DNA of 32,841 bases from a virus. The notes beneath the pieces are model-generated. The model had not been told where the DNA came from. It saw only the letters and a program-made list of their open reading frames with translations, and searched no databases. Positions 13,436 through 28,897 of the stretch are shown here, piece after piece; position 1 is the stretch's first letter; every line of letters starts with the position of its first letter. A program made the translations under genes and the position numbers. The stretch covers positions 1-32,841 of IMG/VR virus record IMGVR_UViG_3300009481_000055; one strand, 5' to 3'.

Positions 13436-13813
13436 TTATTTCCATGTTAGACTACCATCTTCGTCAAGCACTCTGATTACGTGTTTGTTAGAGCATTCGT
13501 ATTTGAGTAACCACCTTAACTTTTCTTTCATAACTTCAGTGCAGAAGGGACAGTCAACGACATACCCGATACCACCCTTGCTATTCTGCAAGCTGGCTGA
13601 TATTACTCGCACTGTAATTTCTTTCCCCTGATAAGCAGGAGCTACACCAGTGTAAGGAACTTGATACGAAACCCCATCGGTTTCGTACTTCGGTCTTTTG
13701 TATGGCTTGGTATAGTCTTGATATCCACAGTACACACAGATCGGGAACTGGTCATCGTAGTCTCGTACATCCCAGCCGTTGTTACGGTTGCACTTAGGGC
13801 ACGATGAGGTCAT
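13436..13813 (-). CDS. Zinc-ribbon protein
   Basis: 125 residues starting in an ATGA overlap. Two Cys pairs at the N-terminus (C5-x2-C8 and C26-x2-C29, with CPKC and CVYCG) form a zinc ribbon. A second possible site is C88-x2-C91 with C107 and H111. The middle is beta-rich. It is the last gene of the leftward replication operon, next to a resolvase-like nuclease. Phage zinc ribbons here are often nucleic acid binding or transcription modulating, but no specific function can be assigned. Confidence 0.7.
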   Translation of the reverse strand: MTSSCPKCNRNNGWDVRDYDDQFPICVYCGYQDYTKPYKRPKYETDGVSYQVPYTGVAPAYQGKEITVRVISASLQNSKGGIGYVVDCPFCTEVMKEKLRWLLKYECSNKHVIRVLDEDGSLTWK

Positions 13814-14121
13814 AGAAGCGTGATCTCCTTAATGAGAAATGCTCTGGCTTTTTGTCCCTTGGTATAGACTTTCACGACACCGCCCTGCCTCTTTCCAGTT
13901 TCTTCTGATGCGAGTTCTAATTGTCCAAGAGCTTTCAGTAACCATGCAGGTGGCTTGGTCTGGGTAGACTTAACTTCATATACAGCATCGGAAGTTTCCA
14001 CATCTGTATGGGGCTGACTGTTATTAACATTCCTCATCCCACCAAATGAGGTGGCTACCTTTCTCTCCCACACTTTGCCTCGTTGTTTATTGTTGCGACC
14101 AATCTTTTTAGCGTCACTCAT
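13810..14121 (-). CDS. PD-(D/E)XK nuclease, Holliday junction resolvase-like
   Basis: 103 residues from ATG at 14121; a GTG two codons upstream is possible but the AGGA site fits the ATG better. The order E19 (helix GKVWERKVATSFGG), D40 (HTDVETSD), then YEVKS with E49 and K51 is the PD-(D/E)XK active site, followed by a Pro-Trp helix PPAWLLKALGQLELA. Size and order match small archaeal-type or phage Holliday junction resolvases (Hjc-like). Expected role: cutting branched DNA during recombination or before packaging. Neighbouring helicase, exonuclease and SSB genes agree. Confidence 0.65.
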   Translation of the reverse strand: MSDAKKIGRNNKQRGKVWERKVATSFGGMRNVNNSQPHTDVETSDAVYEVKSTQTKPPAWLLKALGQLELASEETGKRQGGVVKVYTKGQKARAFLIKEITLL

Positions 14122-14566
14122 TATCACACTTCCTGCATCTAACTACCCAGTATTCCTGCCTTCTACATGTTCCGATTGGTTCAAGTGGGCAGCCATTATA
14201 TTCTGGATATAACCTGCGTAGCTCATCATCTATTAAGCTCCACTTCAACATGTTCTTAAGCAGTGCATCGATAAGTTCGTTTTCTTTTTCAGGCATCAAA
14301 CGTGCAGCTTCTAAACGCTTCGTGGCTTCACTTAGCCAATCAGCTCCAGCACGTAATCGGGAAAGATACTGATCTTCAACTACCCTTGGGACATTATTGA
14401 TGGCTGTGATTATTAAATTTTTATTTTTTTTAATTTCCATATACAGATCGGTACGTTCTTTACCACCACGTACATCCAGCTTATTGTCCTTCACCCTGAT
14501 CTCAATGCCAGCCTCTCTACAGCTCAGTAACAAATGCCTGATCGTCCTGCCTACATCGACTGCCAT
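14114..14566 (-). CDS. TubC_N-like small replication-associated protein
   Basis: 150 residues behind GGAGGTGATTC-ATG. Residues about 8-57 (HLLLSCREAGIEIRVKDNKL, DVRGG, then a helix IKKNKNLIITAINNV) follow the pattern of the TubC N-terminal docking-like domain, often fused to phage and plasmid primases or polymerases. Here it stands alone. The C-terminal part has GCPLEPIGTC and VVRCRKC, a four-Cys zinc site. It overlaps the ATPase gene by 16 bases, so the two are made together and may form a complex. I find no primase or polymerase catalytic residues. Confidence 0.55.
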   Translation of the reverse strand: MAVDVGRTIRHLLLSCREAGIEIRVKDNKLDVRGGKERTDLYMEIKKNKNLIITAINNVPRVVEDQYLSRLRAGADWLSEATKRLEAARLMPEKENELIDALLKNMLKWSLIDDELRRLYPEYNGCPLEPIGTCRRQEYWVVRCRKCDNE

Positions 14567-15843
14567 GAATCACCTCCTTCACTTGATTGAGTGACCAGTG
14601 TTAATACGCCATCTGATTCGGTTACATTACCATCTTTCTTTTGTTTAGATACTGCTGACTCTACGTTACGTTCACTCCTGTCAGTCGGAATGTCTCTACC
14701 CCTAGCATCTCGTGGCTTGAGTTCCCTGATGCGTTCCTTCAGGTTGTTCCTATCGCTTGAGCCTTCTGTTTTTAATACGTTGTATACCAATTGATAATAG
14801 GATAACTCTCCAACGTCATCGGTATCGAACACATCCTTTCTTGAATACACAACGCCCCCATCTTTAAACTCAACGCCCCAGCTCTGGGGCTGCTGCATCG
14901 GTACGTTGTTTGCTTTACGGCAGAACAACGAGAAGTCCATACCAGCCTCCGAACTACTCGATCTCTTTGCCTCCCAGACAAGTCGTGCACTGTTATTGGT
15001 AAAGGCAGATCCGAATAAATCTCCCTGTTTATTAGCATGGGATATCAGGAGCACAGTTGTTTTAAGTTTTTCAACTGTGGCAAAGAAAGGAATGACTGAC
15101 TCTTCTGAATTTAATTCACCGCTGATTGCTCTACCCATACTGTCAATGACTACCATGTTGATATCGTTTTCATAGATAAGATCACGAACATAATCTTCGT
15201 GATCTGTTAGATTACCTACTAGTTTTTGGTAGGTGATATTACTGGTAGTATGTTCTATGTCAGGAGAATCTATACCAAGACCAGCATGGATCATACGTAC
15301 CCGATTACCTATCTCGTTTGCATTAGTTTCAAAGTCTAGGTACAGCACATTAGAAGGCTCTATCACCAGCCCATGCTGAGAGTAATCCATGTATGCTTGC
15401 TGTGCTAACACTGACAGGAAGGTTGCGAACATTGACTTACCAGTACCACCGTCAGCCCATATCAGCGTACAGGAATTTTCTACCACCACATTGTCTATCT
15501 TCCACGCTACGCCGTCCGATAAATCTATGTCACGTATCTTAATGGCAGCGTCTGCTTTCCTTACAGTGTCAATCACTATACCTGACATGTCTTCTACTAA
15601 CTGTTCCCAGTCCACACCATAATCTTCTGGTGGCCTACGCTTATTCAGTTTCCTGATGAAAGCATCCAGCCCACTCACTGAATTAAAAGTAGGATTGCTT
15701 CGGTGTACTGGCTGGTCATTTAATAAGACTGCTACCTGTGCCTTGAATCCTTTCGGCTTGATGTCTTTTATCTGCATCACTACATTCTGGGAGGGCCACG
15801 TTACTACGTAGCCCGATCCCTTTTCTTCTATCGTTAGTTCCAT
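14551..15843 (-). CDS. RecA-fold replicative helicase/ATPase (RepA/AAA_25 type)
   Basis: 430 residues. Walker A is WADGGTGKS (GGTGKS 132-137); LYLDFET (167-173) carries the catalytic Glu; Walker B is MVVIDS (230-235); LLISHANK (265-272) is the sensor segment; ARLVWEAKR follows. This is the RepA/DnaB-like RecA fold used as phage and plasmid replicative helicases. The N-terminal 115 residues are a separate domain, the last 80 a charged linker region. The start overlaps the upstream coiled-coil gene by 10 bases. With the SSB and nuclease genes it forms a replication module; no polymerase gene is visible, so host polymerase is probably used. Confidence 0.82.
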   Translation of the reverse strand: MELTIEEKGSGYVVTWPSQNVVMQIKDIKPKGFKAQVAVLLNDQPVHRSNPTFNSVSGLDAFIRKLNKRRPPEDYGVDWEQLVEDMSGIVIDTVRKADAAIKIRDIDLSDGVAWKIDNVVVENSCTLIWADGGTGKSMFATFLSVLAQQAYMDYSQHGLVIEPSNVLYLDFETNANEIGNRVRMIHAGLGIDSPDIEHTTSNITYQKLVGNLTDHEDYVRDLIYENDINMVVIDSMGRAISGELNSEESVIPFFATVEKLKTTVLLISHANKQGDLFGSAFTNNSARLVWEAKRSSSSEAGMDFSLFCRKANNVPMQQPQSWGVEFKDGGVVYSRKDVFDTDDVGELSYYQLVYNVLKTEGSSDRNNLKERIRELKPRDARGRDIPTDRSERNVESAVSKQKKDGNVTESDGVLTLVTQSSEGGDSWQSM

Positions 15844-16082
15844 TTATAGCCTTCTCCTGTGGGTTTAGGTTGTTTAGGTTTTACAGGTTGCCGTGGCCTA
15901 CCTGTAAACATATTGACAAGATCAACCAGATCACCAAGCTTGATATTAATATCTATCTCTCTCTCTCGATCACGTAGCTGCTCGTTCTCTTTATGAACCG
16001 CAGCGTTCTCTTCTCGATAGATATCATTACGTTCCTGAAGGAACTTAATCATCTGGTTGGCCCTGTCCAGATCATCGATCAT
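15834..16082 (-). CDS. Coiled-coil protein in replication operon
   Basis: 82 residues starting in an ATGA overlap with the nuclease gene. Residues 5-50 are a strongly charged coiled coil (LQERNDIYREENAAVHKENE, LRDREREI), followed by a short hydrophobic helix (LGDLVDLVNMF) and a Pro/Lys tail (RQPVKPKQPKPTGEGYKWN). Likely a dimeric adaptor or scaffold for the nuclease or helicase it sits between. No enzymatic residues. Confidence 0.65.
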   Translation of the reverse strand: MIDDLDRANQMIKFLQERNDIYREENAAVHKENEQLRDREREIDINIKLGDLVDLVNMFTGRPRQPVKPKQPKPTGEGYKWN

Positions 16083-16912
16083 ATAGTTTTCCTGCTCTGG
16101 TACATACTCTTACCAGCACTCAATGAGCAGAGGTAGTCGAATGTCCTGCCCCAGTGGGTTACGTCCACATCAGCGAACTGTACCTTACCGTTAAAAACCT
16201 TTGGTTCATCACGTAATTTTTTATTGTTCTTATCTCTGGGGTAATCGTTAACAAGTCGCACCACCATGGCATCACATTCAATTAACCTGTTCTGGCTAAT
16301 TCCAGTGTCCTGTTCGTCTTGCCTCATATCCTCAAGAGCTTGAGCGTATGCTGCTACCTGCATGAAAGAGGACTCAAACAAACCACTGGTAGTCTTCCAG
16401 TCCACTACTACATACCTGTCGATGTCTGTTTGAAAGAGAGCATCTACTTGACCAGCATATTTAAGACCGCCAATAGAACCATAAACACCCACCTCAGTAC
16501 CCACCAGCTTCCAGTCTATATGTTCCTGCCTCCACTTGAGCCACGCTCGTATAGCTGGCTCAAGCTGGTCATCCAGTGTGGAGAAATCAACCTCTTCATC
16601 TTTCAATAGGCGTTCAATAATACTGTGTACTTCAGTACCGATCCTTGCTGATTCGGCAGCCTCTTGGTTTGCTGCTGTTACTATCATATTGGCAAGAGCC
16701 TTGGTTAGTTTCCTGCCGTTAAACTTTGCAAGCTGGGTATCTATCCACCCAGCTCTCCATTTCTCTATGCCATAGGCTCGTATAGTACCGTCAATCAATG
16801 AGGTTATTGACTGGTGCTGCTCACCATTTACTAGATAGTAGCGACCATTATTTTCTGTAACCTGTGTTATGTATTTTGGTGACAGGGCTACAGGTATATC
16901 TACAATTGTCAT
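16079..16912 (-). CDS. RecB/Cas4-like PD-(D/E)XK exonuclease
   Basis: 277 residues from ATG at 16912, with GGAG six bases upstream; a TTG further upstream overlaps that ribosome site and is unlikely. Motifs in order: IGTEVHSIIE (H96), VGTEVGVYG (E140), GQVDALF (D157), YVVVDWKTTSG (D171, K173), then FMQVAAYAQALE (Q185, Y189). These are the RecB-family nuclease signatures H, GxxD, DxK and QxxxY. It probably resects or processes DNA ends during phage recombination. A full Cas4 would have an iron-sulphur cysteine cluster; none is present, so a PDDEXK_1-type exonuclease fits better. Confidence 0.8.
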   Translation of the reverse strand: MTIVDIPVALSPKYITQVTENNGRYYLVNGEQHQSITSLIDGTIRAYGIEKWRAGWIDTQLAKFNGRKLTKALANMIVTAANQEAAESARIGTEVHSIIERLLKDEEVDFSTLDDQLEPAIRAWLKWRQEHIDWKLVGTEVGVYGSIGGLKYAGQVDALFQTDIDRYVVVDWKTTSGLFESSFMQVAAYAQALEDMRQDEQDTGISQNRLIECDAMVVRLVNDYPRDKNNKKLRDEPKVFNGKVQFADVDVTHWGRTFDYLCSLSAGKSMYQSRKTI

Positions 16913-16939
16913 AAGCTTCTCCAAAAAAAAATTATTTTT

Positions 16940-17464
16940 TTATATTTCTGTATTTATAAACTCGTCATCAGCATCTGGCTCTGGTATGTAAGTCCCAAGG
17001 ATTACAGATGCATAGAGATTAGTCAGGTAATCTAATTGATTTGGAGTTAGACCACCTTTATTTTCAATGTTGTAAAACGCAACCTGCCTGACTATAAGAA
17101 CATCCTTGTCTGAATAATTATGGGAACTTACTGGTGCTACTGATCCTTCTTGAAGTGCTGGAGCTGGGGCTACATGCCCTGCTTCAAAGTCTAGGTAACT
17201 CTTGCAGTTAACCACATCGTTAGATGTTGAAGTCTGCCCATCTCTACGTTGCCACTCTTTAACTTTATACTCAACTGTCCACGCACTACCAACACCACCC
17301 TTCTCTAGCATAGCCTCCCCCACCTTATCGAACCATGAATACCAAGCAGTCTGGTTATTCTGATCCTTCAATTCAAAACGGTACGGCCCTTTACCTGAAT
17401 CCCCATGACTATTGTCAGTCTTCTCAATCGTACCTGTTACTGTATGTATCTGTTGTTGTGTCAT
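16940..17464 (-). CDS. OB-fold single-stranded DNA binding-like protein
   Basis: 174 residues in an ATGA overlap. Residues 1-95 form a beta-rich fold (THTVTGTIEK-like start, YRFELKDQNNQTAWYSWFD, AWTVEYKVKEWQRRDG) consistent with an OB fold. A flexible Ala/Pro linker follows, then a helical segment (DKDVLIVRQVAFYNIENKG) and an acidic tail (EPDADDEF), a typical C-terminus of SSB proteins that recruits partners. Its place between the excisionase-like protein and the exonuclease supports a replication or recombination role. After its stop the sequence becomes a short A/T-only tract before the nuclease ribosome site. Confidence 0.62.
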   Translation of the reverse strand: MTQQQIHTVTGTIEKTDNSHGDSGKGPYRFELKDQNNQTAWYSWFDKVGEAMLEKGGVGSAWTVEYKVKEWQRRDGQTSTSNDVVNCKSYLDFEAGHVAPAPALQEGSVAPVSSHNYSDKDVLIVRQVAFYNIENKGGLTPNQLDYLTNLYASVILGTYIPEPDADDEFINTEI

Positions 17465-17742
17465 TCGTTCTCCAATGGGTATAGCTGGACTATATCTCCA
17501 AGTGTTACATAGGTATCTGTGTCTTCAAATTTGTAGCCAAGTTTCTCAACGTCATCTTCAGAAAGATAAACACCACCAGTTACTCTGCGTCCTACCTCTG
17601 GGTTGTCATTGACTGCCCTTCGGATAGTTTCACTATGGACACCGTCAACAGGCATGTCCCATTTGTTCTTGGTGATCTTCTTAGCTACCTCTGGTACGGT
17701 GTAGTACCGCACCTCCTGCCCATCCACTTTAATTAATATCAA
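17461..17742 (-). CDS. Excisionase-like winged HTH protein
   Basis: 93 residues starting at TTG, with a very strong AAAGGAGG site five bases before it; no ATG is available nearby. The central stretch (VHSETIRRAVNDNPEVGRRV, then GGVYLSEDDVEKLGY) matches MerR/excisionase-type winged helices: recognition helix, wing, and a start-of-next-helix Tyr. First gene of the leftward replication operon, so it may autoregulate it. No integrase is present, so a recombination directionality role is unlikely. Confidence 0.6.
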   Translation of the reverse strand: MILIKVDGQEVRYYTVPEVAKKITKNKWDMPVDGVHSETIRRAVNDNPEVGRRVTGGVYLSEDDVEKLGYKFEDTDTYVTLGDIVQLYPLENE

Positions 17743-17939: not shown

Positions 17940-18332
17940 CTAGTTTACCACATTCTGCCTGTGCATATACCTCTTCGCACACCTTAAATTACAGAAGTCT
18001 TTATCAGGTTCTTTCTTACGCTTTTTAGTGTACCGTCTATTACTAGCATCACGGCCCTCGACTACACTGAATTCACCACAGTCAGCACACTGAAACTCAT
18101 ACACGAATGCTAGGTAACGGTGTTCTTTACACAGCCCTGCCTTGTTCTTCTTACTGATTCTCTTCTTACAGAAGTCACATAACTTGATCGGTGATTGTCG
18201 TGGCACACGCATAGTCTTGGCATGGTAAGAGACTAGCTGTCTTGATAGACCAAGAGCCTTCGCTATCTGTGAGTTAGACAGGGTGGAATCAAAGTTAATC
18301 AGGCTGAGTATCTTGTCTCTGGTTTTACCCAT
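17940..18332 (-). CDS. HTH plus zinc-binding regulator-like protein
   Basis: 130 residues from ATG at 18332: GAGGAG lies seven bases upstream, while the alternative TTG start would contain that ribosome site. Residues 5-42 (KILSLINFDSTLSNSQIAKA, LGLSRQLVSYHAKTM) are a clear helix-turn-helix. Cysteines C52-x2-C55 with C68 and H71, and C82-x2-C85 with C114 and C118, make two zinc sites. A basic stretch (RRYTKKRKKEPDK) may touch DNA. It probably regulates early genes or acts as an HNH-like DNA-binding remnant; no His-Asn-His catalytic order is visible, so a transcription factor is preferred. Confidence 0.65.
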   Translation of the reverse strand: MGKTRDKILSLINFDSTLSNSQIAKALGLSRQLVSYHAKTMRVPRQSPIKLCDFCKKRISKKNKAGLCKEHRYLAFVYEFQCADCGEFSVVEGRDASNRRYTKKRKKEPDKDFCNLRCAKRYMHRQNVVN

Positions 18333-18780
18333 AGATATTCTCCTCAAATACTCCTGCCTGTAAGATCACATTGGCACAGATTGCATCAATGAGGCCAGCG
18401 TCTAAGTCTTTCTCGGCTTCTCTACATGCCTTAACTATCCAGTCAGATGCCTTCATTTCCCCAGAGAGGACTTTATTTAGTCCTCTCCTTATCAGGTTAT
18501 GGTCAACGTAAACACGCTTCTCTTTGGTCAGGTCACCTGCACGATCAACCCCGAACTTAAACACCTCCTGCATTGGAGCTTTCACGTACTCAGGATGATC
18601 GGGTACAAGTTCAGCACTGGCTATGATGTAGTTAGTGCCATTGTCTTGGTCTTTCCACTCATAGTTTCTGACATAAGCCCATCCTCCTACCGCACCACTC
18701 TCGATAGCATCAACGAGAATGCCAGAGTAGAAACCAGTACGCTCTGCTGTTTTTCTTTCAACCCAATTTAATTTAGTCAT
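18325..18780 (-). CDS. Hypothetical protein, 151 aa
   Basis: Alpha/beta protein of 151 residues, overlapping both neighbours by 8 bases. Beta strands (GGWAYVRNYEWKDQDNGTNY, IIASAELVPD) are followed by helices (LIRRGLNKVLSGEMKASDWI, KACREAEKDLDAGLIDAICA). The YVDHNLIRRGLNKVL segment is well formed but fits no family I know. Overlaps suggest it is co-translated with the HTH/zinc gene. Function unknown. Confidence 0.7.
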   Translation of the reverse strand: MTKLNWVERKTAERTGFYSGILVDAIESGAVGGWAYVRNYEWKDQDNGTNYIIASAELVPDHPEYVKAPMQEVFKFGVDRAGDLTKEKRVYVDHNLIRRGLNKVLSGEMKASDWIVKACREAEKDLDAGLIDAICANVILQAGVFEENIYG

Positions 18781-20984: not shown

Positions 20985-22058
20985 TTATTCTGCTTTGGCA
21001 TCTGGGTCTATACTGAGTGCTCGCCATGCAGTCTTGATGATGACATCGACTGCGTCTATGTCATGCTGGGCATCGATCTTAGTGAGGATAGATTTCCTCA
21101 TGAGTCCTCTGAATCCCACGACTGATCTGCGTGACTTCATAGCGGATGCCATCTTGGCAGCAGCCAGCCCCCTTCGGGGGGATATCTGGTAACCAATACG
21201 GTTATCCTTCCATGATTTGTAGAGGGTGTCAGTCAGGAACACTGCATCGTTAATGAATGTCTTCGCCATGCCATGTGCTTTGAACATGGCAGCCAGTGAT
21301 TCCCCTGAAAGGGGAGGTACTTCGATAGACCAGAACCTGTCACGCAGTGCCTCGTTCATTCGCCTAGTACCAACGTAGTTGGGGTTCCTAGTCATGAAGC
21401 ACCTGAACTCTGGGTGTACCTCGATTGTCTGACCAGCTACCTGAAAGGTAGACCCCACTTGGGCAGGGCGGTCAGTCATGCCGTTGATGAATGACATAGC
21501 CTCTGGCTCTGCCATGTTGGCCTCATCGATCAAGGCCCAGTCTCCCTGCTTCGCAGCAGTAGCAAACTCTGCTGCTGTGAAGACAGTCGAGCCAGCTATC
21601 AACTCTCGTTGACCTACTAGGTCACGCTTCCTGAGTCCACCGTCAGCAGTTACCACTGCTAGGTTCTTGCCTAGCTTCGCTGCGAGGTGATGTATAGCTA
21701 GAGTCTTACCGCTACCTGCTGGGCCCATCAACTCAACGTGTCCAATCATGGCAGCAGCATCGAGTTCTTCCAGCCATGGTGGGGTGACGTAGTCACCGTT
21801 CACTTCGGATGTTGCCTTCGGCACATCGGGCCAGATGATTGACTCGCCCTGTTCAGGCGGTGACTGTGGTGCTGACTCTACCTTCGGTGAGTTGACCACT
21901 ATCCTCGCTGGGGTATCACTTATCCCACCGCATGGCTTGCATTCACAGTCAGCCAGTGCCAAGACAATCTTCGATTTAATCTTGGTCGGCAGCTTATGTG
22001 TCTTAGCCAGCTTTCGTAGCTGATCTATCTCTAGATTCTCCAGTTCAATCGCTCTCAT
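20985..22058 (-). CDS. MoxR/CobS-type AAA+ ATPase
   Basis: 357 residues with GGAG seven bases before ATG. Walker A is GPAGSGKT (112-119), Walker B ALIDEA (175-180), sensor 1 is in MTRNPNY (N225 region), and the arginine-finger region is LRDRFW (239-243). LVGQRELIAG and the helix after Walker B fit the MoxR/CobS clade. The first 35 residues (LENLEIDQLRKLAKTHKLPT) look like a SAP or HeH DNA-binding helix pair, and a Pro-rich linker follows. It probably works with the VWA protein to remodel a target complex. The coding DNA already contains several of the short hairpins that crowd the next 3 kb. Confidence 0.82.
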   Translation of the reverse strand: MRAIELENLEIDQLRKLAKTHKLPTKIKSKIVLALADCECKPCGGISDTPARIVVNSPKVESAPQSPPEQGESIIWPDVPKATSEVNGDYVTPPWLEELDAAAMIGHVELMGPAGSGKTLAIHHLAAKLGKNLAVVTADGGLRKRDLVGQRELIAGSTVFTAAEFATAAKQGDWALIDEANMAEPEAMSFINGMTDRPAQVGSTFQVAGQTIEVHPEFRCFMTRNPNYVGTRRMNEALRDRFWSIEVPPLSGESLAAMFKAHGMAKTFINDAVFLTDTLYKSWKDNRIGYQISPRRGLAAAKMASAMKSRRSVVGFRGLMRKSILTKIDAQHDIDAVDVIIKTAWRALSIDPDAKAE

Positions 22059-22187: not shown

Positions 22188-22238
22188 TTCACTACTCCTC
22201 CTTTAGGAGGAGGAGTAGTGAAACAGTCTAAGACTGTA
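22188..22238 (-). terminator. Double hairpin at the end of the early operon
   Basis: TTCACTACTCCTCC (22188-22201) pairs with 22206-22222 around a TTTA loop, with a 3-base bulge. Beside it CAGTC-TAA-GACTG (about 22225-22237) overlaps the stop codon of the 22228 gene. Read on the minus strand these hairpins come right at the end of that gene and before the moxR promoter. No good U tract follows, so they may block RNA decay rather than end transcription. Confidence 0.45.
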
Positions 22239-22872
22239 GTTTTTTACAGGCTCTGCAATCCTCATGCCTTGGGTCTGAAGTTTTCACCACCCAGCTAGCT
22301 TTGACTGGGAAATTCCCAGCGTAGCTGACATTCCCCTGCTCAGTTATCCTGTGCTCAGCTTGGGTAGTGTCATACACTTTGATCTCAGCAGGGGCGTAGC
22401 CCTGTATTCCACGTGCTGCCCAGTAGCTCTGGCCTTGGTACTTGAGTGTGATGTGAGTATCAGTGTGATCCAGAATCTTAGCTGGTTTGGTAGTGACTCC
22501 ATCGAATGTGACTACGTCACCTTTGACATACATCCTCATGAATGTTCCCTGTCGTATGATCGGTGTCCTGTCTGAGCCGAAGCTATCGAACCTCGTTTTG
22601 TAGTCAGGGATACGATCTAAATATTTCTTCCACTCTGTACGGTCTTCGACCGTATACCCCCACAGTACTCGTATCTCTACATCTACCAAGTTTTTAGATA
22701 ACTTGATTAAGGTGTGTTTTATTACGACTGCACACTCAGTACCATTCGTATCTACGATACGAAACTTGTTGCCTAGAGACTTCAGTGTCGAGCTTTCCAG
22801 CTTAGTTACTGTGTCTTCGACACGCCTGATTTCATCATCGCTATAATCGGCTACGGTAAGTAGTAATTCCAT
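22228..22872 (-). CDS. Hypothetical early protein, 214 aa
   Basis: Start at ATG 22872 (MELLLTVADY); an ATG 15 bases upstream exists but contains the GGAG site. An N-terminal helical region (SDDEIRRVEDTVTKLESSTL) precedes beta segments (KNLVDVEIRVLWGYTVEDRT, GDVVTFDGVTTKPAKI, THITLKYQGQSYWA). GDVVTFDG resembles a KOW/SH3-like barrel strand. The C-terminus has DCRACKKLQS, half a zinc site. No family assigned. The coding DNA holds at least eight short inverted repeats, one (TAGTAAT-TCC-ATTACTA, 22861-22877) across its own start codon. Confidence 0.62.
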   Translation of the reverse strand: MELLLTVADYSDDEIRRVEDTVTKLESSTLKSLGNKFRIVDTNGTECAVVIKHTLIKLSKNLVDVEIRVLWGYTVEDRTEWKKYLDRIPDYKTRFDSFGSDRTPIIRQGTFMRMYVKGDVVTFDGVTTKPAKILDHTDTHITLKYQGQSYWAARGIQGYAPAEIKVYDTTQAEHRITEQGNVSYAGNFPVKASWVVKTSDPRHEDCRACKKLQS

Positions 22873-22921
22873 TACTAATTTCTCCATTGTTCGTCCCTTC
22901 GGGACGGCTTGTATGTTCGAC

Positions 22922-22945
22922 CTAGTTGAGGGTCATATTGACCAT
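22922..22945 (-). CDS. Possible seven-codon leader ORF
   Basis: A perfect AAGGAGGT (22951-22958) five bases before ATG opens a frame of only seven codons (MVNMTLN). The small hairpin GGTCA-TAT-TGACC (22931-22943) lies inside it, and a second hairpin lies just upstream of the site. It precedes the 22872 gene by about 50 bases. It may be a leader peptide that regulates that gene through ribosome position, or a decayed gene. Confidence 0.35.
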   Translation of the reverse strand: MVNMTLN

Positions 22946-22976
22946 AAGCAACCTCCTTCCTAGCCTTCGGCTAGTG

Positions 22977-23903
22977 TTAATTTGAATACCCAGAGTCCAC
23001 CCCCCTAGCCTTTAGGCTAGAGAGGGCTTTGGCTGACTGGCTGCCCTTCGGCTGTGTCCCATGTATCAAGAGTCCGAAGGACTCTTTGCCGAACACTGCA
23101 TGACTATCGTCATGGTCTATCTCCAGTCCTTCGGACTGTGCTTGCTCTAGGCTGAACACTACCTTGGCAGTCTTCAGTCCCTTTAGGGACTGGATCAGGT
23201 GGTCGTACTTCCCACCTTCACTGGCTGTGAGAACGAAGTTCTCAGGCAGTGGCTGCCATGCCTGACGTAGCTTTGCTACGTGTTGCAGTGACTTGGTATA
23301 GGCGTAGCCTATAACTCTAGGCATCGGCTGGTTTTGTGGCAGGGTGGTGGCCCGAAGGGCCATCGACCAGCCTTCTAAGTACTTCGTACTGTAGAAGTCA
23401 CCGCCGACATGAATTCTTATGATGACTACGTCATCAGGCTTGAACTTCTTCGTAGCATCTTTGATGCTATCGAGGATCAGTGCAGCGATAGCATACGCTG
23501 CATTTTCTCCAGTTAACTTACGTAGTAAGTTAAAGTTGTGCCAGTTTTGCTGTCTGACGTTCTCGTATCTCTCAGCACTAGCCTCGAAACACCTGAACTT
23601 TAGTTCAGGACTGTCCCAGATTTTGCCAGTCACTGGATCGGCGAATGCTAAGCATTCGTCAGCTCCGGGACAGCTCCAACCTGCTGGGAGTGTCAGGGTT
23701 AGTATCCTAACCCTAGACACTGGCACATTCAGCTCCGCTGCTGCTGCTTTTCTCAAAGCTTTCAGCTTTGAATTGCCATTGCCGAAGCTGAGCAACTCGC
23801 CTTTCTTCGGATCGATCCCACCTTCGGTGGGTATGTCCGATGTCCAGCTCTGAGTAGCCTTGTCGTACTGCACCTTCGGTGCACTGTATGGGTTGCCGTT
23901 CAT
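22977..23903 (-). CDS. GP88-like phage protein
   Basis: 308 residues from ATG 23903 (AAGGAG six bases upstream); the GTG starts further upstream contain that site. Key motifs are LTLPAGWSCPGADEC (about 70-84), ERYENVRQQNW (111-121), IRIHVGGDFYS (162-172) and IGYAYTKS (198-205). This order, CPGAxxC, RYxN, RIHxxGDFYS, YTKS, is that of the GP88 family found in mycobacteriophages and many environmental phages; its biochemical function is not known to me. The Cys pair and histidine suggest a metal site. About twenty-five perfect hairpins lie within this coding sequence, more than in any other gene here. Confidence 0.75.
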   Translation of the reverse strand: MNGNPYSAPKVQYDKATQSWTSDIPTEGGIDPKKGELLSFGNGNSKLKALRKAAAAELNVPVSRVRILTLTLPAGWSCPGADECLAFADPVTGKIWDSPELKFRCFEASAERYENVRQQNWHNFNLLRKLTGENAAYAIAALILDSIKDATKKFKPDDVVIIRIHVGGDFYSTKYLEGWSMALRATTLPQNQPMPRVIGYAYTKSLQHVAKLRQAWQPLPENFVLTASEGGKYDHLIQSLKGLKTAKVVFSLEQAQSEGLEIDHDDSHAVFGKESFGLLIHGTQPKGSQSAKALSSLKARGVDSGYSN

Positions 23904-23933
23904 GTTTTTCTCCTTCACCACGTAGTGGTGTAC

Positions 23934-24128
23934 TTATTTTTTCCCCAGTTCTGGACACCAATTCTTGGTGTCACCGCAAACTTCGCATTTTTCCAGAGTC
24001 TTATCTTCGATAAGAATCTGGTCGTACCAGTCATCAAGCTCAGCTACGCTGCTGATTCTCGGCACAGGGTAAACCCTCGAACATTCAATTTCGCCAGTCG
24101 TCACATCTTCGATGTGTATGTATTCCAT
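23934..24128 (-). CDS. Small Cys-containing early protein
   Basis: 64 residues from ATG 24128, with AAGGAG six bases upstream that directly follows the hairpin TCACCCC-TTC-GGGGTGA (24140-24156). An acidic chain (IHIEDVTTGEIECSRVYPVP, LDDWYDQILIEDKTLE) ends in CEVCGDTKNWC, a possible knuckle for zinc. Function unknown. Confidence 0.6.
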   Translation of the reverse strand: MEYIHIEDVTTGEIECSRVYPVPRISSVAELDDWYDQILIEDKTLEKCEVCGDTKNWCPELGKK

Positions 24129-24166
24129 CGTCTTCTCCTTCACCCCTTCGGGGTGACTTGTTTAAT

Positions 24167-24868
24167 TTAGCCTAGCTTCGCTAGGGTGACTGGCTTCATC
24201 TCTCCAGTCTTGGCGACTTGAGCTTCCAGCTTCGCTGCTTGAGGGCCAGTCAGTGAAATACCTTCGGTATTTCTAGCTGCCTCGACGGCTTCTCGCTTGG
24301 TACTAGCGTAGCTAGTCTCGCCGTTGTCACCGTTGGACATCGTGACTACCGTTGTCCACTTTCCCCTGTAAGGGGAATCTGGGTAAGTGTCCTTGAAAAT
24401 TTCCAGCTTGCTAATCCACACCTTCGGTGTGGACTTGGCCTTGGATTTCTTGGACTTCGTCACCTTCGGTGACGGCTTGATGCCAATCTCCTCGGCTGAC
24501 ATCGTGGACTTCGTCACCTTCGGTGACGATTTGGCCTTGGCTTTGGCCTTGGCCTTGACTCCGAAGGAGTCACAGCTTCGGATTTTCTTGGCTGCTGCAA
24601 GAGCTTCGCTCTTGTCAGTCTCGAAGTGGTCGGCTGGGAAGTAGCGTTTTTCGTTTATGTAAACATAAACGCAGTACTCCTCGAACTCACTGTCGTAGAC
24701 AACCCTAGTACCTACGGTACTAGCTGGTTCCCAGTCAGCGATAGTGGCGAATTTCTTAGAGTTACGTAGTAACTCTCTACCCTTGACCCACTTGACGAAC
24801 AGTGTCCCTCTCAATCCCTTCGGGATTGAGTTGTGCTGTACCTTCTCGACTGTTTTTGGTGTTCCCAT
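24167..24868 (-). CDS. Lys/Ala/Pro-rich early protein with hairpin-encoded repeats
   Basis: 233 residues, first gene of the leftward early operon, with AGGAG directly after a hairpin. The N-terminal domain (about 1-95) is mixed alpha/beta (TRVVYDSEFEEYCVYVYINE). The middle is a low-complexity basic linker, KAKAKAKAK, then SPKVTKS twice and STPKVWISK, resembling the histone H1-like tails of some bacterial DNA-binding proteins. The C-terminal domain (about 165-233) has WTTVVTMSNGDNGETSYAST. The repeated SPKVTKS units are encoded by nearly identical 23-bp copies holding the same hairpin. DNA binding is plausible; no search was done. Confidence 0.58.
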   Translation of the reverse strand: MGTPKTVEKVQHNSIPKGLRGTLFVKWVKGRELLRNSKKFATIADWEPASTVGTRVVYDSEFEEYCVYVYINEKRYFPADHFETDKSEALAAAKKIRSCDSFGVKAKAKAKAKSSPKVTKSTMSAEEIGIKPSPKVTKSKKSKAKSTPKVWISKLEIFKDTYPDSPYRGKWTTVVTMSNGDNGETSYASTKREAVEAARNTEGISLTGPQAAKLEAQVAKTGEMKPVTLAKLG

Positions 24869-25191
24869 TTTCTTCTCCTTGCCCCTTCGGGGCAGCTTGT
24901 GTTTGTGGCGATAGACTCGCCGATTAGTTGGGACGTAGTCCCATTTCAGCTCTTGGATTTACCCTTCGGGTAGAGCTGGCCTCCGCTGCCTATCTTACGT
25001 AGTAAGACGGCCGATGTCAAATCCTAGGCACGACAGGTAGGATAATCAACATTCTGGACACCTGAAAAAGGAGATCAGGTCAGACAGCAGAGCTGTCTGC
25101 GGTCAGATCGGCCTGAAAAGGTCAGCAGCGGAGCTGCTGGCGGTTCGACTGGACTGAGGCCGAAGGGGGCATAGCTTAGCTTTCTCTCTCT
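24869..25191 (-). other. Structured untranslated leader of the early operon
   Basis: No gene fits here. If transcription starts near 25192, this is a 320-base leader. Stems include TGCCCC/GGGGCA (24880-24894), TGGGAC/GTCCCA (24929-24943), TACCC/GGGTA enclosed by AGCTC/GAGCT (24948-24977), TCTTAC/GTAAGA (24993-25007), ACCTGA/TCAGGT (25060-25080), CAGACAGC/GCTGTCTG (25081-25099), CAGCAGC/GCTGCTG (25123-25139) and CGGCCT/AGGCCG (25109-25114 with 25157-25162). The last ones form two similar units each starting CCTGAAAA. Confidence 0.5.
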
Positions 25192-25198
25192 AAGAGTG

Positions 25199-25228
25199 CT
25201 TATACCCTTGACAGAATTTTTTTGCTAA
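25199..25228 (-). promoter_or_regulatory. Candidate early promoter (leftward)
   Basis: On the minus strand TTAGCA (25223-25228) and TATAAG (25199-25204) lie 18 bp apart, 4 and 5 of 6 to consensus, with an A-run at the start of the spacer. It would start RNA near 25192 and read through the four hairpin-rich genes to 22228. The TTGACA seen on the plus strand at 25209-25214 has no matching -10. Confidence 0.4.
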
Positions 25229-25249
25229 AAGGTCGTTCTGATCACGTTC

Positions 25250-25325
25250 TGTTTCTTTGAAACATCTTGAAATTTCTCCGAAACAACCCCTCTGTTTCAC
25301 TGAAATTTCTTCTGTTTCAGTGAAA
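25250..25325. promoter_or_regulatory. Operator or iteron array: TTTCA-N-TGAAA repeats
   Basis: TGTTTC-TTT-GAAACA (25250-25264), GAAATTTC (25269-25276), TTTCA-C-TGAAA (25295-25305) and TTTCA-G-TGAAA (25315-25325) lie in a row. The last two share the 8-base lead TCTGTTTC and are exactly 20 bp apart, about two helix turns. Further half sites lie in the palindrome at 25337-25385. The array separates the leftward early and rightward late genes. It suits a dimeric repressor or a replication initiator. Confidence 0.6.
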
Positions 25326-25336
25326 GTAAGACAGTT

Positions 25337-25385
25337 GTGTTTCACCCTTATACCCCTTTAGGGGGTATATAAGGGAGTGAAACAC
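25337..25385. repeat. 49-bp compound palindrome at the divergent junction
   Basis: Outer arms GTGTTTCAC (25337-25345) and GTGAAACAC (25377-25385) match 9 of 9. Inner arms CCTTATACCCC (25346-25356) and 25361-25374 match with small bulges around a TTTA loop. TATATAAG at 25366-25373 inside the right arm could be part of a rightward promoter. The outer arms repeat the TTTCA/TGAAA motif of the array to the left. Probably a control site or origin cruciform. Confidence 0.7.
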
Positions 25386-25415
25386 TCTTACTGTCAGATA
25401 CTGTATGATGTTGGA

Positions 25416-25637
25416 ATGAATGAGAAAAGACCTACTGCATTTGGAGGACTCTCTAGGAGGCAAGATAGTCCAATGGAAAAGTTTATAGGAAAATTAAGAC
25501 CCCAGATATTTCTGAGTATTATATTGCTCGGCATTGTAGCTTTTGTTGGAATGTTTAAAGGAATGACAGAGGTGACAGTTGGATGTGTCGCTGGTATTAT
25601 CGCTTTAGCTAAAGATGTACTTCAGAGTGATAGTTAA
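25416..25637 (+). CDS. Small membrane protein, possible holin-like
   Basis: 73 residues from ATG 25416; a GTG at 25377 would start inside the palindrome and is less likely. Two hydrophobic segments, about 30-48 (QIFLSIILLGIVAFVGMF) and 52-68 (EVTVGCVAGIIALA), follow a basic N-terminus. The ribosome site is poor, so the start is uncertain and the transcript could be nearly leaderless (TATGAT ends 7 bases before the ATG). It opens the rightward operon and overlaps the next start (TAATG). Similar two-helix proteins near terminase genes are sometimes holins. Confidence 0.55.
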   Translation: MNEKRPTAFGGLSRRQDSPMEKFIGKLRPQIFLSIILLGIVAFVGMFKGMTEVTVGCVAGIIALAKDVLQSDS

Positions 25638-27073
25638 TGCCACATGTACCAGAACATATATACGGTGGATGGACTAATTTACCTGTAGGAACAAGAAGCC
25701 CTGATGTATATTGGGACGTAAATAATCCCAGTGGGACAACAACACTCCCTATGGGTACATCAAGTCCGGGTATGCATGTGCAACCCGGAGGCTCAACTAA
25801 CCTACCTATAGGATTCTCTGGTACTACTACTGCTGCTAATTGGTTAACCCCAACTCCTGAAGACCCTGTTAATGTACTAAGGGGAACATTTGCATCCCCA
25901 GCTCCGTATGGACATTCCACTGGTTCAGTATTGGGAGACTTACAGGCAAATCCCTTTATTGACTTTGTGCCCGGTGTAGGTACGGCTGTTAATTGGAACC
26001 AGATGGGGCCATATGGAAAAGCTTTCTCTTTAGGATTAGACGCTGTAGATTTGGCAACCTTTGGATTAGGTAAATCGGGTACAGCTCCACTTAGACAACT
26101 AGTTTCTAACCTACCTTGGAGTAGTATAAATCGTGCTGACGATATAACTATATCTCCTGAACGAGTTGAAAAAGCCACAAATGCAGTTGAAGAGATGCTG
26201 AAATCCAACCGAATGATACAAGAAAGTGTAGAAGATATAGAAGACCGAATGGCTATGGTGGGACAATTAAAACAATCTCAAACCGCAGAACGAATTCCTG
26301 TAATGAAAGATTTTGAGATAACCGAAACAGGGGAACGAATGTTTCCTGTAAAACCATACCAAGATAACTACCCGATCCTTCAGGGGTATGCACATTCAGA
26401 TACTCCATCTCTTGAAAGATTGATACAGACTGGCGGTCTAGAAGGCCATCAAGCGTTATATGGTGGTTTGTATAGTGAAGAACCACTACTTCCCTTTTTG
26501 AACCAGAATGGAGAAATAGTTTATTTAAGCAGGAACGCAGACGTTGATAGGTCAATAGATGACATGATGCTTAGTGGTGCAAATTGGCCCGAAATACAAA
26601 AACCAAATATAGACGTTTATGGTGGGCCGTTCTCTTATCCTGAGTTTGGTGTATATACCAACGACAAAAATATCTGGCCCGGTACTCAGGGGTACTTAAC
26701 AGCACAAGACGAACCCTTTAGTTGGTTGTCTCCTTCTTCGAGGCAAAGAATTGAATATCCTACTCACAGTACTTTAAGTGACCCTGTTGATATAGGTCGT
26801 GAATTAGTGACAAGAAGGCAATCATTTGAAGATCAATTACAAGAAATAAGGAATGCTAGAGCAAGGCCTTTACCGACCTTGAAAGAAACCGATCCTCTAT
26901 TGGCAGATTTTGTTCAAACTGGGAAATGGGATACTAGGTTAGAAGCCGATCCTTCGTTCCCTGTACCAACAAGTCCATTAATCCCTTACCCATATCAGCT
27001 TCCATTGCAGCTTGGAATTCATGGATTAACTGGAGTCGGCAGAGGAATAAATCAACGTGGTTATCCTTATTAA
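25637..27073 (+). CDS. Unknown 478-residue protein, possibly packaged with the head
   Basis: Starts in a TAATG overlap. The N-terminus has three copies of a Pro/Gly motif: TNLPVGTRSP (13-22), TTLPMGTSSP (35-44) and TNLPIGFSG (54-62). Residues about 95-160 contain PFIDFVPGVGTAVNW and helices. Residues about 240-345 (YAHSDTPSLERLIQTGGLEG, then EIVYLSRNAD) loosely recall ADP-ribosyltransferase-type folds, with a Y-x-S/T start and a helix ending in G-G-L, but the catalytic Glu cannot be placed. The end is Pro-rich. Position just before terminase suggests a late virion protein. Function unknown. Confidence 0.55.
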   Translation: MPHVPEHIYGGWTNLPVGTRSPDVYWDVNNPSGTTTLPMGTSSPGMHVQPGGSTNLPIGFSGTTTAANWLTPTPEDPVNVLRGTFASPAPYGHSTGSVLGDLQANPFIDFVPGVGTAVNWNQMGPYGKAFSLGLDAVDLATFGLGKSGTAPLRQLVSNLPWSSINRADDITISPERVEKATNAVEEMLKSNRMIQESVEDIEDRMAMVGQLKQSQTAERIPVMKDFEITETGERMFPVKPYQDNYPILQGYAHSDTPSLERLIQTGGLEGHQALYGGLYSEEPLLPFLNQNGEIVYLSRNADVDRSIDDMMLSGANWPEIQKPNIDVYGGPFSYPEFGVYTNDKNIWPGTQGYLTAQDEPFSWLSPSSRQRIEYPTHSTLSDPVDIGRELVTRRQSFEDQLQEIRNARARPLPTLKETDPLLADFVQTGKWDTRLEADPSFPVPTSPLIPYPYQLPLQLGIHGLTGVGRGINQRGYPY

Positions 27074-27084
27074 AGGAATAAAAA

Positions 27085-27567
27085 ATGAAGAAACCAGAAG
27101 AAACAAAAGCTAAACAGGACGCTTTCCTTACTGCTTATGGTGAACTGGGAACTATAACTTATGCTTGTAAAGCTGTAGGTATGTCACGATCTACTTATTA
27201 CAACTGGCTTGAAAATAATCTTTATAATTTTAAAGAGAAGCAAGCTGTAGCACATGAAATATTCGGAGAATCTATACGAAATATAGCTTTAGAAAGAATA
27301 AAATTACAAGGCCCAAAAGATAACCCTGTACTTCTTATGGCTTTTCTTAATGCTTTTGCTCCTCAATACTTTAAACGTGATAGTTCTACTGCTAATGATG
27401 CTGCAAAAGAGTTAATGATAGAGCTTAAAAAGCTACGAAACATGCAGCAAGAGTTACGTGATGATAAAAAAGGAGTAATTGAAGAAGATGATTCTAAGAA
27501 AAGGGCTATGGATGAGGTAGAAAAGATACTGTCAAGGCAGATGGAATCTGATGACAACAGAGATTAA
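27085..27567 (+). CDS. terS: Terminase small subunit
   Basis: 160 residues with an AAAGGA site. The N-terminal part (KQDAFLTAYGELGTITYACK, then AVGMSRSTYYNWLENN) is a helix-turn-helix of the type used to recognise the packaging site. The middle has PVLLMAFLNAFAPQYFKRD, and the C-terminal half is an acidic coiled coil (ELMIELKKLRNMQQELRDD) that would oligomerise and touch the large subunit. The next gene, the large terminase, overlaps by 17 bases. Role: recognition of viral DNA and start of packaging. Confidence 0.8.
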   Translation: MKKPEETKAKQDAFLTAYGELGTITYACKAVGMSRSTYYNWLENNLYNFKEKQAVAHEIFGESIRNIALERIKLQGPKDNPVLLMAFLNAFAPQYFKRDSSTANDAAKELMIELKKLRNMQQELRDDKKGVIEEDDSKKRAMDEVEKILSRQMESDDNRD

Positions 27568-28897
27568 TCCAGATGTAACAGATTATATCTTCTCTAAGTT
27601 GGACTTTACTCCAACAGAGAAGCAGGAACCAATACTCAACTGCCGTAAGCGTTTCATATTGGTAGCTGGTGGTGAACAAGCTGGTAAATCTATGGTGGCT
27701 TCCAAGTATCTGGTGTCACGATTCCTAGAAACTGATGAAGCTGGACTATATTGGCTGGTAGCTGCTGACTATGAAAGGACTAGAGCTGAGTTTGAGTACC
27801 TTACACAGGACTTTGCAGCACTGGGAGTACTGGCTGAAGTAACTAAACGAGTTGACCCCGGCAGAATTGTACTGGCTGATGGCACTAGAATAGAAACCAA
27901 GTCAGCTAAAGACCCAAGAACTCTGGCTATGAGAGCACCTAATGGCATTATCGGGTGTGAGGCTAGCCAGTTAGACCTTGAAACCTTCCATAGATTACGA
28001 GGTAGGTGTGCCCCAAAGCGTGGGTGGATGTTCCTTGGTGGTACATTTGAAGGTTCACTGGGGTGGTATCCACAGTTATTTCAACAATGGCAACATGGTG
28101 GAGATGATGAACAGTCGTTCTCTCTGCCTAGTTATTCCAATCAGTACCTATATCCGGGTGGTAGGCAAGACCCTGAGATACTCAGGCTTCAAGCTGTAGC
28201 CTCTGACGACTTCTTTATGGAGCGTATTGAAGGTATACCTACACCACCACAGGGATTAGTATTCGGAGAGTTCAGGCCTGATATACATATCAGTGATGAA
28301 GCCAAGTGGTCAGCAGGTGATCCTGTTTATTTATGGATAGACCCCGGTTATGCTGGTGGTTATGCGGTAGAAGTAGTACAGGATATCAATGGTCAGATAT
28401 GTGTAATAGACGAGATATACGAACAAAACCTCATCACAACAGAAATGATCGACATTGCAAAATCTCGACCATGGTGGAAAGATGTCCAAGGTGGGGTAAT
28501 CGACATAGCTGGATACCAGCATCAGGCTATGTCTGCCCCAGCAGAAATATGGTTAGAGGAAACTGGGGTATATCTTGCTGCTCAGAAAGTTAGAATTAAC
28601 GAGGGAACTGAAAGACTGAAGTCATTTTTAAAGCCCGATCCTATTTCTAACATGCCAAAAATAATATTTAACCCAAGTTGTCGTGGGATTCTGTCAGAGT
28701 TTGGGGCAGAACCAAATCCATTTACAGGACAAACCCAAGCCTATCGCTGGAGAACTGATCGAGATGGTAATATAGTGGGAGAGACTCCTGAAGATAAATA
28801 CAATCACGGCGTTAAAGCTGTAGTTTATGGACTTGTAGATAGATTCGGGTACGGTCATTTACGCAACAACTCGTTCATTAAGGTTAAGAGGTGGTAG
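27551..28897 (+). CDS. terL: Terminase large subunit
   Basis: 448 residues. The ATPase domain has Walker A GGEQAGKS (40-47), an IIGCEA Walker B with E137, and the coupling motif FLGGTFEGS (161-169). The nuclease domain has LWIDPGYAGGYA (D264), VIDEIY (D287) and GVIDIAG (D318), the three acidic residues of an RNase H-like active site. These are the two engines of phage DNA packaging: translocation and cutting. Length is near the usual 430-600. Packaging mode (headful or cohesive ends) cannot be read from this. Confidence 0.93.
   Translation: MTTEINPDVTDYIFSKLDFTPTEKQEPILNCRKRFILVAGGEQAGKSMVASKYLVSRFLETDEAGLYWLVAADYERTRAEFEYLTQDFAALGVLAEVTKRVDPGRIVLADGTRIETKSAKDPRTLAMRAPNGIIGCEASQLDLETFHRLRGRCAPKRGWMFLGGTFEGSLGWYPQLFQQWQHGGDDEQSFSLPSYSNQYLYPGGRQDPEILRLQAVASDDFFMERIEGIPTPPQGLVFGEFRPDIHISDEAKWSAGDPVYLWIDPGYAGGYAVEVVQDINGQICVIDEIYEQNLITTEMIDIAKSRPWWKDVQGGVIDIAGYQHQAMSAPAEIWLEETGVYLAAQKVRINEGTERLKSFLKPDPISNMPKIIFNPSCRGILSEFGAEPNPFTGQTQAYRWRTDRDGNIVGETPEDKYNHGVKAVVYGLVDRFGYGHLRNNSFIKVKRW

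Follow-up and report, generated by a model that had tools for sequence, protein, structure and literature searches.

A three-part control site between early and late genes recurs in a group of related uncultured phages

A linear virus record of IMG/VR (32.8 kb; the window, that is, the whole stretch of DNA analysed here, comprises 32,841 nt) carries a three-part control site between its early and late genes, and this site recurs in dozens of related phages. The element spans positions 25166-25392 and is composed of a conserved bipartite core (block A), a palindrome array (block B) and an irregular hairpin (block C). Most likely it is the replication origin of the phage, placed in the gap between divergent early and late genes; we would put the probability of this reading at roughly 45%. 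The original prediction, an operator or iteron array joined to a palindrome at the early-late divide and serving as origin or switch, fits the evidence, although origin, switch and packaging functions are inseparable by sequence. It had overlooked the 64-bp core at 25166-25229, the fact that relatives conserve the whole element, and a comb of mini-hairpins that lies further to the left.

Position and gene layout

Leftward genes occupy 13.4-24.9 kb and rightward genes extend from 25.4 kb onward, the latter in the order small membrane protein, 478-aa protein, terS, terL and a protein in the portal position. Gene maps and PHROG hits place the element between a leftward early block and a rightward terminase-side block, in agreement with the original prediction. 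The parts of the element and the rightward genes referred to below are:

25166-25229, + strand: block A, with left arm GGGGCATAGCTTA at 25166-25178, a variable spacer, right arm TACCCTTGACAGAATTTT at 25203-25220 and TAAA at 25226-25229
25252-25262, no strand: array site 1, TTTCTTTGAAA, matching the looser TTTC-NNN-GAAA only (TTTCAAAGAAA in the close relative L003)
25273-25283, no strand: array site 2, TTTCTCCGAAA, matching the looser TTTC-NNN-GAAA only
25295-25305, no strand: array site 3, TTTCACTGAAA, a perfect TTTCA-N-TGAAA
25315-25325, no strand: array site 4, TTTCAGTGAAA, a perfect TTTCA-N-TGAAA
25325-25392, + strand: irregular stem-loop, with foot AGTAAGA/TCTTACT, lower stem TGTTTCAC/GTGAAACA, bulges and tip CCCC-TTTAG-GGGG
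25416-25637, + strand: first rightward gene, for a small, putatively holin-like membrane protein (open reading frame and relatives)
27085-28897, + strand: terS (27085-27567) and terL (27551-28897), from PHROG hits and gene maps

The product of 25416-25637 is, in our own reading of its sequence, probably a membrane protein of the holin-like kind; an upstream GTG of this open frame, at 25377, falls within the hairpin. Between this gene and terS (25637-27073) lies a large gene, in place of which relatives have other genes, of 269-715 aa, or none, so that the position appears to be a variable slot. On the early side, a CobS-like AAA_5 ATPase and a protein of the GP88 family are encoded at 20985-22058 and 22977-23921.

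A bipartite core linked to terL

Block A follows a pattern of fixed length, GGGGYATGKCTTR-N~22-TACCCNTGMCAGAMTTTT-N6-AAA, and was found in more than 80 IMG/VR contigs (this and the following counts are of contigs, not of independent lineages; many are fragments and some are near-duplicates). The full pattern, with both arms specified, matched 58 IMG/VR stretches, all except one exactly 55 bp long. Because this first pattern had fixed both arms, a rescan specified the right arm and AAA alone and returned 81 stretches with 59 distinct sequences. At the same distance, positions 1-4, 6-8 and 10-12 of the left arm were conserved in 48-59 of these 59. The AAA at +62 to +64 was likewise present in 46-49 of 50 sequences of a scan in which it had been left unspecified. 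Furthermore, terL lies within 5 kb downstream of block A in all 77 contigs of sufficient reach, and the remaining four end too early. The left-arm conservation in the scan by right arm, together with the 77/77 association, indicates that block A is a genuine motif of two parts, linked to this family of terminases. It was found in none of 84,980 species genomes.

Block A, we infer, offers a conserved protein a contact that does not vary; this protein would be either the terminase, in which case the site may double as a packaging start, or a host factor. Its interpretation as a sigma-70 promoter was rejected, since by eye the hexamers and their spacing do not fit and the predicted promoters lie elsewhere.

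The palindrome array and its re-coding in relatives

The predicted TTTCA-N-TGAAA inverted repeats, two of them exactly 20 bp apart, are indeed present as sites 3 and 4, which are reverse complements of each other. With the two looser sites they form a row of four, spaced 21/22/20 bp. The sequence TTTCNNNGAAA occurs just four times in the whole 32.8 kb, every time in the array, whereas shuffled sequences contain 0.47 on average and 0 of 100 reach four. The spacing amounts to nearly two turns of the helix, so that all four sites probably lie on much the same side of the DNA. The spacer between site 4 and the hairpin is 60% AT in the window, near the average of the element, and 56-79% in relatives.

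The bacterial centromere site parS, bound by ParB, has a 16-bp consensus of the TGTTTCACGTGAAACA type. This 16-bp type is absent here, the array sites being odd-centred as opposed to the even 16-bp palindrome, and the proteins scanned gave no match to the ParB family at the curated cut-off.

A TerL search returned 41 related loci. In most of the nearer loci reaching far enough upstream, the same motif is clustered at a phase of about 21 bp just before the late genes, with its central three bases varying freely. In whole records of relatives the TTTC motif is almost confined to one locus, and the control pattern read backward gave 0-2 matches. The original prediction was to fall if the motif were absent from relatives that keep the gene order and if neither phage nor host proteins bound it; the motif is present in such relatives, in similar geometry.

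Behind the same block A, however, the letters of the array differ from lineage to lineage. By classes assigned by eye, with a palindrome count as an aid, there are TTACATGTAA palindromes in L147, L157, L158 and L168; GTAATATTAC in L141, L155 and L171; TTTAC/GTAAA in L142, L150, L156 and L176; GCAATTGC in L163, L167 and L175; and ATAACATGTTAT-like palindromes in L236 and L252, and further types exist. The array has thus been re-coded by lineage, while the layout is kept where it can be measured: the spacings are 20/22/20 in L158 (a TACATGTA array) and in L173, 21/23/21 in L187 and 21/12/21 in L174. Several lineages, e.g. the GCAATTGC and TAGCTA groups, do not have the clean four-site geometry. 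A geometry kept with other letters is what would be expected of an initiator and its iterons drifting together. A search for longer phages with the TACATGTA array, aimed at their early genes, gave L158 alone in this family. Three TTTCNNNGAAA in a row were also noticed in L051, L053, L054 and L058; these proved to be plain tandem repeats in unrelated contigs and were discarded.

A hairpin conserved in fold

The 49-bp palindrome of the original prediction exists at 25336-25384, but it is imperfect, being interrupted by small bulges, and the stem continues beyond it on both sides to cover 25325-25392. This longer stem-loop folds at -20.5 kcal/mol (z -6.5). In relatives, most of the folded elements form a stem-loop with a C-run/G-run tip and mostly a TWWA loop, the z-scores being negative and in most cases between about -3 and -7.6. 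The arms differ between lineages and bear asymmetric bulges near the tip, while the fold is retained. The palindrome therefore behaves as an irregular hairpin, conserved in fold rather than in sequence, and not as a plain operator. Its lower stem repeats the array half-site in many TTTC-type phages but not in L015 and L078, so that sharing of the half-site is not essential.

Both strands fold about equally well and the G-U pairs (33/635 versus 20/604) show no clear strand bias, which does not favour a role as RNA. In Rfam no match was obtained at the gathering score and the two sub-threshold matches are attributable to chance; the reading as an RNA leader was accordingly set aside.

Two pairs of phages, L015/L048 and L078/L083, have near-identical hairpins with an apparently inverted tip (C7-TAAA-G6 versus C6-TTTA-G7). 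This is suggestive of a TTTA/TAAA flip-flop by inversion, or else of template switching or drift in the TWWA loop.

Candidate proteins for reading the array

A replication-type operon in the leftward block is headed by two genes that encode the best candidates for a protein reading the array:

17940-18347, - strand: candidate reader 1, a winged HTH protein (Pfam HTH_24, 3e-6; alignment; model pLDDT 86.7) with zinc-ribbon-like cysteine pairs
17461-17742, - strand: candidate reader 2, a MerR/excisionase-like winged helix protein (alignment; model pLDDT 80; weak MerR/BldC/Xis fold matches)
13810-17464, - strand: replication-type operon after the HTH pair, with putative OB-like (16940), PD-(D/E)XK nuclease (16079), AAA_25/RepA-like helicase (14551) and nuclease-like (13810) products

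The designations of 16940 and 13810 are our own reading of sequences that have no family match. The predicted model of the 17940 product, whose recognition helix is SRQLVSYHA, resembles winged-helix regulators of the MarR/AsnC-like type, and that of 17461 resembles MerR/BldC/excisionase folds; none of these matches is significant. The original prediction named these two HTH proteins as possible binders. They are an adjacent pair at the head of the operon in the relatives compared, including every TTTC-type phage in which the operon has been sequenced, and 17940 homologues occur in all of the latter (the window, G006, G007, G009, G013 and L180). A search of the GCAATTGC group revealed none. Common ancestry of the TTTC phages confounds this correlation, and the co-occurrence of 17940 is therefore a lead only. 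Neither a phage DNA polymerase nor a known initiator family was recognised in the window.

The terminase itself is probably not the reader. The TerS proteins of L158 and L161 are 83% identical and have the same recognition helix, SRSTVYRW, while their arrays are of the TTACATGTAA and TTTCNNNGAAA types, respectively; an identical recognition helix beside different arrays suggests that another protein reads them. This falls short of proof, since the TerS of SF6 reportedly shows little preference for particular sequences when it binds DNA, and the TerS proteins of SPP1 and SF6 may be non-specific (PMC4737164). As array reader, TerS is thus not supported by the comparison of L158 and L161.

Replication origin as the preferred reading

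If the element is an origin, an early-made dimeric HTH protein, for which 17940 and 17461 are candidates, would occupy the four palindromes in a cooperative manner, all from one face of the DNA. The hairpin-bearing stretch would be opened as a result and would receive the RepA-like helicase that the phage itself encodes (14551), and the hairpin, once extruded, would give the host polymerase a site for priming or for strand opening. Several observations are consistent with this model: the position between divergent blocks, the near-confinement of the TTTC motif to one locus, the conserved fold of the hairpin, and the presence of a phage helicase and of the operon behind the HTH pair. In five genomes the detrended cumulative GC skew, proposed earlier as a check, reaches its minimum at 4-278 bp from block A; this is confounded by gene direction, so that replication and transcription are inseparable here. 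Several points speak against an origin. Above all, block A invariably accompanies the terminase genes, a link that would not be required of an origin. Moreover, some 7 kb separate the array from the genes of the candidate initiators, no initiator family was recognised, and several lineages lack the clean set of four sites.

Known origins offer partial parallels. Ceduovirus (c2) origins, which are of three sequence types, occupy the non-coding gap that separates the divergent early and late blocks (PMC7150918). The Lactococcus phages c2, bIL67 and 923 share with the present element the divergent-gap position, palindromes and repeats, and different sequence types at the same place (PMC7150918). 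However, c2-type origins drove plasmid replication without added phage proteins, and a block A or a four-site array is not described there; a search of 50,697 phage records found no DNA match to the c2 group or to other cultured phages. The origin of lambda consists of four imperfect-palindrome iterons and an AT-rich tract, with iteron number differing among its relatives (PMC7466680). A row of four imperfect-palindrome sites is common to both, the DNA beside it being AT-rich in lambda and perhaps here, and several copies of a short palindromic site at a phase of about 20 bp are found here as in a lambda-type iteron origin. The lambda iterons are located inside the initiator gene O, in contrast to the intergenic array described here; an O homologue was not recognised, and the hairpin and block A are additional. 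Hairpins are used by the origins of RSF1010 and pRN1, and that of pRN1 is conserved in fold and not in sequence (PMC4234260). RSF1010 oriV combines iterons and hairpins with a RepA-type helicase, and pRN1 has its fold-conserved, sequence-variable hairpin between conserved flanks (PMC4234260). Here there is a single large hairpin, and a RepC/RepB' primase homologue was not recognised. As far as tested, none of the Ceduovirus, lambda and RSF1010/pRN1 origins is homologous to the element.

Alternative functions

Somewhat unlikely, in our estimate, is an operator or late-gene switch, in which an early repressor or activator dimer on the four palindromes and the hairpin foot would govern the promoter of the rightward terminase-capsid genes and perhaps also that of the leftward early genes. 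In that case the hairpin would belong either to the leader RNA of the late genes or to the operator. Palindromic sites at a divergent gap suit a dimeric HTH protein, and both candidate readers resemble, in weak matches, transcription-factor folds (MarR/AsnC-like and MerR/Xis-like). A -10-like TATGAT is seen by eye just past the hairpin, one leftward promoter is predicted at 25020-24992, and the repetition of the half-site in the lower stem of many but not all relatives would also agree with this function. On the other hand, these genomes have the motif almost nowhere else, a leader RNA is marked neither by G-U strand bias nor by an Rfam match, and such a switch needs neither block A nor a conserved irregular hairpin.

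The strict association of block A with terL is better explained by a packaging (pac) site than by an origin. TerS would wrap the phased array, TerL would cut at block A, and packaging would proceed into the late genes. The association holds although the early genes are almost wholly different between lineages. The pac site of SPP1 is similar in its logic: at the start of terS, repeats that vary are combined with a cleavage box that is better conserved, and the TerS is weakly sequence-specific (PMC4737164). The pac sites of SPP1 and SF6 resemble the element in their position at the terS gene and in this combination of repeats and box (PMC4737164), and the element adjoins terS as an SPP1-type site does. 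The repeats of SPP1 are direct, however, while those found here are palindromic, and their strict two-fold symmetry suits an HTH dimer over a TerS ring. The replacement of the array beside an unchanged TerS helix (L158 versus L161) leaves sequence-specific binding by TerS unsupported, and the conserved hairpin, which is additional here, would be left without a reason. Near-complete contigs start at unrelated points, as in circular permutation, and among 49 contigs there are 11 with an end that falls 30-400 bp upstream of block A; these ends are a scattered excess, none of them sharp, and were rejected as proof of packaging ends. Taken as a whole, we consider this function unlikely, block A being the part to which it would especially apply.

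A mixed site, with origin and packaging start together, is compatible with all observations. A more elaborate version, which we regard as quite improbable, is a modular address made up of an invariant terminase-linked core, a rapidly re-coded array and a fold-conserved hairpin, in which replication and packaging starts are coupled and the array is a lineage compatibility code. Were this the case, co-infecting relatives would not use each other's initiators.

In phage lambda, cos has the order core, repeats, terS. The same order is found here, and block A could correspond to cosN and the array to cosB. About 20 contigs that were picked by TerL alone run through block A and 0 end inside it (one begins in the array), which, as indirect evidence on virion ends, disfavours cos; nor are a hairpin of conserved fold and sites of two-fold symmetry characteristic of cos, and a cos site is thus very improbable. 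Chance or a compositional artefact, with nothing of weight in its favour, is refuted by the shuffles, the reversed-pattern controls and the recurrence in dozens of contigs.

Whichever function applies, the element is a concrete place at which origin, switch or packaging can be tested. Its fixed geometry with rewritten binding-site letters forms a natural series that would be useful for studying how the specificity of initiators or regulators evolves.

Possible hosts

The closest terminases of cultured phages are only about 26% identical to that of the window. Among the matches listed, the only TerL relatives in species genomes are L226, L227 and L228, at 56% identity; these are lone terL-like genes in Chloroflexota/Dehalococcoidia MAGs, without phage genes around them. 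The restriction of these relatives, among the matches listed, to Chloroflexota MAGs is a hint that the viruses may be phages of deep-sea Chloroflexota, for which, to our knowledge, few if any phages are known. The samples are presumably from the deep ocean, going by the IMG sample numbers. Block A may be used as a recognisable signature of this large group of uncultured, apparently deep-ocean phages.

A comb of mini-hairpins upstream of block A

Perfect mini-hairpins are spread over 22188-25139, with stems of 7-9 bp and loops of 3-5, mostly of the TTC/TACG/GAA type. Their number is 47, versus 1.0 in shuffles. Each stem is different; the hairpins are often 42-54 bp apart, and the comb passes through coding genes. 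It coincides with a region (21-25 kb) of about 50% G+C, compared with about 42% elsewhere, and of strongly negative AT skew. In an imperfect alignment, 17 stem pairs (against L012) and 14 (against G007) were changed on both sides and still pair, and 28 and 29, respectively, were broken. The comb was absent in G006, G009, G013 and G073. In the window and in G002, G007, L012, L034, L174, G060 and L172 the comb is dense over the final 2-2.5 kb ahead of block A. Among the near relatives, the phages with the comb are the ones whose GP88 gene belongs to this type (cluster 8); the distant G060 and L172 have it too.
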